From IMG/VR virus record IMGVR_UViG_3300022072_000111, positions 1 to 26,782 of that record: a stretch of 26,782 bases of DNA; one strand, written 5' to 3'. A program made the position numbers and the translations under genes. Positions 9,813 to 10,503 of this stretch are shown one piece after another. The first letter of the stretch is position 1; each line of letters starts with the position of its first letter. The DNA is from a virus. The notes under the pieces are model-generated. The model did no database searches, was not told the DNA's origin, and was given only the letters and a program-made list of their open reading frames with translations.

Positions 9813-10187
9813 ATGATAGAAGGAATACTGAAACAAGTTCCTAACCTAGTAAGTAGTGTCGGATTATCCAATACACTTATGTTGATATTCAGTGGAATAT
9901 TAGTATATTACTGTGCATATCTAGTAAGAGCTAATACTAAGAGTATCCAAACTAATGAAGAAAACTTACAAAGAAAATTAAAGTTAGTAGAGGATGACCA
10001 AAGAGCTTGCCATGTGGAAAGGGAAGCTTATAGAAAGGAATTAACTACTACTAAGTTAAGGAACGATGAACTTAATCTCCTTAATAGGGAAGCCCAAAGG
10101 CAATTAAAAGAATCTGAGGTAGCTAGGCAAACTACTATGGATACTTTCACTAGGACTGTAGAACAGTTTATGGCTAATAATGAATAA
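9813..10187 (+). CDS. Membrane-anchored coiled-coil protein (paralogue 1)
   Basis: 124 residues; RBS AAGGAA. One membrane helix at ~20-38, followed by Arg/Lys ('RANTK'), then a long charged coiled coil (residues ~45-118) with one cysteine (Cys66). The positive-inside rule suggests the coiled coil is cytoplasmic. The protein resembles the gene at 11170: 'DELNLLNREAQRQL' against 'EELNQLNKKSQQKI', and the cysteine sits in 'QRACHVERE' against 'REACEARER'. It overlaps the receiver-domain gene by 8 bp, so the two are translationally coupled. An inner-membrane spanin (Rz-like) is the main alternative, but the ~20 residues before the helix and the charge pattern fit that less well. Confidence 0.68.
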   Translation: MIEGILKQVPNLVSSVGLSNTLMLIFSGILVYYCAYLVRANTKSIQTNEENLQRKLKLVEDDQRACHVEREAYRKELTTTKLRNDELNLLNREAQRQLKESEVARQTTMDTFTRTVEQFMANNE

Positions 10188-10503
10188 TGTATTATTTATA
10201 GAAGATTCAGAAGCACATCGAACTTTAATTGAATGCTATTTAGAGGCTAGGAACGATTGTATTTATCACACTACAGAAGAAGTAGATGAATCTTTAATAG
10301 AAGCCGCTGATATTATCTTTATAGATTATCATCTAGGTAACTTAATAGGGACTAATATAGCTAAAGATATTCAGAGAAGGTATCCCGAAAAACATATCTA
10401 CATATATACAAGTAGAAATGGGATAAGGTCTGATTTCCCTGTCATACCTAAAGGTGATTTTAGAGGGTTCATGTCTGTATTAGATGAGTATATAAACACT
10501 TGA
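10180..10503 (+). CDS. Stand-alone response-regulator receiver (CheY-like) domain protein
   Basis: 107 residues forming only a receiver domain, with no output domain. The expected catalytic residues are in order: the acidic pair Glu8-Asp9 in 'VLFIEDSEAHRTLIECYLE', the phospho-acceptor Asp49 in 'DIIFIDYHLGNLIGTNIAKD', Thr77 in 'IYIYTSRNG' and Lys91 in 'VIPKGDFRGFM'. Thr77 to Lys91 is 14 residues, against ~22 in CheY, so helix alpha4 is shortened; this is usually a signalling face. Starts inside the previous gene (8 bp overlap), so it is made together with the membrane/coiled-coil protein. It may take phosphate from a host histidine kinase or act as a binding partner. Confidence 0.78.
   Translation: MNNVLFIEDSEAHRTLIECYLEARNDCIYHTTEEVDESLIEAADIIFIDYHLGNLIGTNIAKDIQRRYPEKHIYIYTSRNGIRSDFPVIPKGDFRGFMSVLDEYINT

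Follow-up and report, generated by a model that had tools for sequence, protein, structure and literature searches.

What might a single receiver (REC) domain, encoded on its own among membrane genes, do for a phage? The question is raised by a short gene in an IMG/VR virus record of 26.8 kb (IMGVR_UViG_3300022072_000111), whose whole stretch of 26,782 nucleotides was analysed and is called the window below. The timing of phage lysis is usually ascribed to holins and antiholins, acting from within the phage; a kinase-less receiver that recurs among lysis genes would, if the reading developed here is true, couple lysis to two-component signalling in the host. The receiver gene and its active-site codons lie at the following positions.

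10180..10503, + strand: stand-alone receiver (REC) domain of 107 aa, modelled without α4 (translation, Pfam, AlphaFold2, fold matches, selection against relative L002)
10201-10206, + strand: codons of E8-D9
10324-10326, + strand: codon of D49, the predicted phospho-acceptor
10408-10410, + strand: codon of T77
10450-10452, + strand: codon of K91

The gene at 10180-10503 encodes a receiver domain, the fold of which is well supported. The acidic pair, the phospho-Asp, the Ser/Thr and the Lys all occur in receiver order, the same set being present in the relative L002, and the translated ORF places E8-D9, D49, T77 and K91, with a T77-K91 spacing of 14 residues, exactly where an earlier, sequence-only reading of this DNA had put them. 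That reading had also described a receiver without an output domain, in agreement with the translation of 107 aa and with a model that terminates at α5, as in a single-domain response regulator. Residues 4-80 match Pfam Response_reg (PF00072) with an E value of 4.9e-6 and 27.1 bits, a score that falls slightly short of the curated 30.2; the NCBIfam matches are weak and mostly to response regulators, and the best phmmer match in the PDB is the receiver of NtrC1 (E 0.0013). The residue that follows the receiver Lys is usually Pro, and here it is Gly in the window protein and Asp in L002, leaving no Lys-Pro motif in either. The sequence after β4 reads IYTSRNG in the window and IYTSGEG in L002, and the FATGUY motif of FATGUY-type single-domain regulators is absent after β4 from both.

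The AlphaFold2 model of the receiver, for which the input consisted of two sequences only, has the topology β1-α1-β2-α2-β3-α3-β4-(no α4)-β5-α5 with a pLDDT of 78, corresponding to five strands in receiver order together with α1, α2, α3 and α5 of the (βα)5 fold. Strand β4 is modelled at residues 72-77 and β5 at 88-90 with no helix between them, and the β4-β5 segment, which reads YTSRNG, is shortened by about eight residues. As modelled, the protein therefore lacks α4, which bears out the suggestion that its α4 face is reduced. Comparison with known structures, proposed at the outset as a check on the fold, returned solved receivers as the best matches to a predicted receiver topology: receivers make up nearly all matches listed by Foldseek in the PDB (E from 5.8e-5) and by VIA-align, in which solved receivers reach a Z of up to 13.8 (106 residues) and superpose with an rmsd of about 2.1-2.6 over 102-107 residues. 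The top matches among viral structures include receivers and kinases with receivers, and ORF30 of Alteromonas phage V22 is also among the viral matches. The window protein illustrates how far a receiver can be reduced with its active site still in place.

Relatives of the gene are few. An identical copy is present in another assembly (L001), the contig L006 starts within the final codons, and L002 carries the only full-length non-identical relative, in which D49 and the acidic pair, the residues singled out for this check, are kept and none of the five catalytic positions has changed. Because the L002 copy is 74-75% identical, with a dN of 0.146 and a dS of 1.00 that indicate purifying selection, and because the same 8-bp overlap with the upstream partner gene (86% identity) is kept, 10180-10503 is judged to be a real gene; the genes directly downstream of the receiver differ between L002 and the window. 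A tblastn search of phage records with the window receiver gave nothing below E 1, the bacterial genomes searched contained no relatives, and IMG/VR, when scanned with a profile built from the two-member alignment, yielded the same two loci and no others; a scan with the receiver alignment of phages PB15 and XX1924 recovered none. The window is probably a fragment of a larger genome, because its DNA polymerase is 51-54% identical to relatives that sit in phages of 93-148 kb. Its baseplate proteins match many myoviruses, including Alteromonas phage V22 (baseplate wedge, blastp E 2e-38).

The genes around the receiver are as follows.

7520-8386, + strand: putative tail fibre (phrog_2282 tail fiber, E 1.2e-5)
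8399-8794, + strand: likely fibre chaperone, assigned from its position; no Pfam match
8797..9150, + strand: small membrane protein, 117 aa (phrog_3342)
9147..9677, + strand: putative holin-like membrane protein, 176 aa, with a C-terminal transmembrane (TM) hairpin (phrog_1544, E 5e-14; role inferred)
9813..10187, + strand: partner candidate, 124 aa, whose single TM segment lies N-terminally within a helix of 106 residues (ORF, hydropathy, AlphaFold2)
10637..11197, + strand: membrane protein, 186 aa, 4-5 TM segments predicted, conserved in L002 (83% identity) and in L005 and L006 (84%)
11170..11577, + strand: second one-TM and coiled-coil protein, 135 aa (weak phrog_89 Rz-like spanin match, E 0.0024)

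The membrane-gene context attributed to the receiver is recovered in these one-TM, multi-TM and holin-like ORFs, and the described 8-bp overlap with a membrane/coiled-coil gene is that between the receiver gene and ORF 9813-10187, whose product is modelled by AlphaFold2 as a single helix spanning residues 17-122 (mean pLDDT 87). The products of 9813-10187 and 11170-11577 are paralogous (blastp 2e-7), and the pair flanks the receiver and the multi-TM gene. In their aligned coiled-coil stretch, a His is present only in 9813-10187 (ACHVERE, against ACEARER in 11170-11577). A tiny ORF, MSAPSTAPRNSADKPKVRK, lies at 10573-10632, between the receiver and the next membrane gene.

The late membrane block is probably a lysis block by analogy with the Alteromonas phages described below; the lysis-type signals found in the window itself are weak Rz-like matches and one holin-like topology. 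The homologue of 9147-9677 in Vibrio phage 1.046 directly adjoins a DD-peptidase-type gene; 9147-9677 itself has no Pfam holin match and showed no homology to the PB15 holin in a profile comparison. No endolysin or confirmed holin was recognised in the block by Pfam, PHROG or holin profile comparison, and promoter and terminator scans of the window gave results at chance level. The placement of fibre and chaperone genes upstream of the membrane block follows the same order in the Alteromonas phages A5 and V22 (L013 and L016 compared).

Receivers in phages had been regarded as uncommon, a view that does not hold for Alteromonas phages, in which stand-alone receivers recur. V22 and its receiver relatives were searched because V22 ORF30 had surfaced as a viral fold match of the window protein, and sequence searches seeded with ORF30 and its relatives reached stand-alone receivers in V22 (myovirus), A5 (Schitoviridae), R9Y1-3, R8W, H4/4 (Autographiviridae), PB15, XX1924 and PT11-V19, as well as in uncultured relatives (L019-L024 and L031). 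Further matches labelled as phage (Listeria, Staphylococcus, Acinetobacter MD-2021a and others) were bacterial-looking DNA or unannotated, and were left aside. The gene next upstream ends, in each case examined, somewhere from 11 nt within the receiver gene to 4 nt short of its start, and its product, of 93-125 aa, has a single hydrophobic segment and a long stretch low in proline; the window receiver likewise comes directly after a short one-TM gene with a helical product. The V22 gene order runs baseplate, fibre, chaperone, small helical gene, receiver, membrane genes and strand switch, and that of the window is much the same, with tail fibre, likely chaperone, membrane genes, TM-coiled-coil gene, receiver, membrane genes and strand switch.

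Several database entries for these genes merit comment. V22 ORF30 (L013, MN877442, 25749-26198) is annotated as 'hybrid sensor histidine kinase - response regulator' and consists of a receiver only. The annotated start of the PB15 'response regulator' (L028, KX982260, 4492-4890) removes β1; the ATG at 4492 of L028 restores it and creates a 4-bp overlap with the upstream gene, and this start was used for the PB15 spacing. Contig L031 (NHBR02000063.1), binned as a Muricauda MAG, has a T7-like phage appearance, with a TM partner, a receiver (63% identical to that of R8W) and a holin-like gene, and is probably misbinned viral DNA.

The parallel between the window and the Alteromonas phages is one of architecture and position combined with the common receiver fold, and implies neither homology of the partners nor orthology of the receivers. 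In hhalign, the window receiver aligns with the other phage receivers at E 1e-7 over residues 1-67, as any receiver would, and the window partner compared with the other partners gives a probability of 2%, showing no homology. The idea that the coiled-coil partner might have a conserved His as phospho-acceptor was also considered and dropped: V22, A5, R9Y1 and the window have a His, and R8W and H4/4 have none that can be aligned.

Lysis genes (holin, spanin or peptidoglycan hydrolase) lie near the receiver pair in all Alteromonas phages examined except PT11-V19. In V22 and A5, an Rz-like spanin gene overlaps the 3' end of the receiver gene (PHROG E 7e-6 and 3e-8, respectively) and has a lipoprotein ORF embedded in it, with a 2-TM gene also present; the V22 genes concerned are ORF31, with its overlapping lipoprotein-like ORF, and ORF32, with two TM segments. 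A spanin with an overlapping lipoprotein ORF is the classic Rz/Rz1 layout. A5 has an annotated endolysin near the pair, R9Y1 a GH108 lysozyme gene that overlaps by 4 bp (E 5e-24), PB15 an M15 peptidase (E 3e-13), a 'hemolysin' partner (phrog_937, E 2e-16) and GTA_holin_3TM (E 3e-16), and XX1924 a DUF5675 gene and a GTA-type holin as in PB15, while H4/4 and R8W have an annotated class II holin two genes upstream. The catalytic residues are kept in all lysis-linked receivers aligned. The PT11-V19 receiver (L027, OP751378, 4498-4950) has lost the phospho-Asp and the Lys; it is still coupled to a one-TM gene, but lies outside any such lysis module.

No report tying these receivers to lysis, or describing a receiver in a lysis cassette, was found in open-access papers, and by that measure the recurrent link between stand-alone receivers and lysis genes is a new point. 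V22 and A5 share their modules through horizontal exchange (PMC10579305). This exchange, together with the 47% identity between the R9Y1 and R8W receivers, means that the lineages are not all independent, and for this reason no probability is quoted for the linkage. The region could simply tolerate extra genes; the presence of receivers among lysis genes in unrelated Alteromonas viruses nevertheless suggests that host signals might help set lysis time.

The reading that we prefer, with somewhat less than even confidence, is that the receiver is a host-phosphorylated switch that acts on a neighbouring membrane protein to tune lysis, each step beyond the fold being put conditionally. The phosphoryl group on D49 would come from a small phosphodonor or from a histidine kinase of the host; any kinase involved is probably the host's, because domain searches found no HATPase domain in the window, in its five relative fragments or in the complete V22 genome. 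The usual signalling face of a receiver is α4-β5-α5, and because α4 is missing from the model, the signal would probably be read instead from the remaining active-site face and α5. Its most likely receptor would be the one-TM coiled-coil protein of the overlapping gene 9813-10187, through which the state of the host could tune late-infection membrane events, most plausibly lysis time given the recurrent genomic linkage. The generalisation that several unrelated phage groups place a host-kinase-fed receiver and a membrane coiled-coil protein in the lysis cassette as a phosphorylation-controlled timer, of which the window would hold a minimal, α4-less version, is rather more doubtful. The arrangement is also present in V22 and A5, both of them Alteromonas phages in culture, which makes the idea directly testable.

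Diversion or mimicry of a host phosphorelay is a close rival, because receivers without a regular α4 are known among phosphotransfer intermediaries, for example Sma0114, SdrG and CckA-REC (PMC9981736). As an auxiliary gene, the receiver might drain phosphoryl groups or replace a host single-domain regulator, altering host physiology (motility, phosphate or stress response), and the lysis and fibre neighbourhood would be only a cargo site. This is a realistic possibility, though not a probable one. Published papers have called Alteromonas phage receivers auxiliary metabolic genes (AMGs; PMC7289586, PMC10579305, PMC8228385), the V22 gene being read as a class II AMG (PMC7289586), the A5/V22 gene as part of an exchanged host-recognition module (PMC10579305) and the R8W gene as a PhoB-like AMG (PMC8228385), and the fact that such receivers recur chiefly in phages of a single host genus suggests that the target is host-specific. 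However, the name 'PhoB' does not fit, as the receivers of R8W, V22, A5 and R9Y1 are 147-153 aa long and leave no room for a PhoB-type DNA-binding domain, and diversion alone leaves the constant upstream one-TM helical gene of all examined cases unexplained. Of the two roles that the sequence-only reading had offered, a phosphorylation-controlled adaptor thus appears, from gene arrangement, to fit the constant pairing with a membrane/coiled-coil gene better than diversion of a host phosphorelay does. In the bacterium Paraglaciecola mesophila (L044, 2085-4372), a PAS-containing gene is followed by a stand-alone receiver of weak similarity; a system of this type is a possible host system for the phage receivers to tap.

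A phosphorylation-independent pseudo-receiver, in which the fold serves only for protein-protein docking to the membrane partner and the catalytic residues are an ancestral relic, is improbable. It would accommodate the missing α4, the Gly in place of a Lys-Pro motif after K91 and the degenerate PT11-V19 member, which has lost its Asp and Lys, but it sits poorly with the retention, despite a dS of about 1, of all five catalytic residues in the window protein and in the relative with 75% identity, and with their retention in all lysis-linked relatives aligned. The least likely reading is a cREC-type enzyme, a divergent receiver for which a counter-defence role has been proposed in jumbo phages (PMC7824862) and which would process 2',3'-cyclic nucleotides or cyclic ADP-ribose: cREC proteins do occur in tailed phages with no kinase link, and the top viral fold matches include the cREC protein A0A6J5LST8, but no gene for NAD or ADP-ribose processing was noticed in the window, and cREC identity was rejected on the Pfam result, in which no cREC model matched at E up to 10 and Response_reg did so at 4.9e-6.

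Having set these alternatives beside the preferred host-phosphorylated switch, the window protein can be compared with known systems. It resembles the jumbo-phage cREC domains as a divergent phage receiver fold without a kinase, but those domains are linked to NAD/ADPr-processing genes (PMC7824862) and the window protein matches no cREC family in Pfam. With the Sma0114/SdrG/CckA-REC type it shares a β4-β5 link without a regular α4 (PMC9981736); those receivers, however, are bacterial and carry the FATGUY motif and Lys-Pro, and the window segment is shortened, not merely disordered. The 'PhoB-like' receivers of R8W and H4/4 and the R9Y1 receiver overlap an upstream one-TM gene by 4 bp and have holin or lysozyme genes adjacent, but are full-length with a C-terminal extension, about 47% identical to one another and remote from the window protein. 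A likeness in arrangement also exists to V22 gp30 (CheY-like) and A5 gp11, stand-alone receivers that follow tail-fibre and chaperone genes and come immediately after a short gene whose helical product has a single hydrophobic segment. These proteins of 147-149 aa have a full α4 region, a KP motif and a C-terminal extension, whereas the window protein has 107 aa and neither α4 nor KP, and BLAST aligns only short segments between them. The window protein is a new, shortened relative in kind of the Alteromonas phage receivers.
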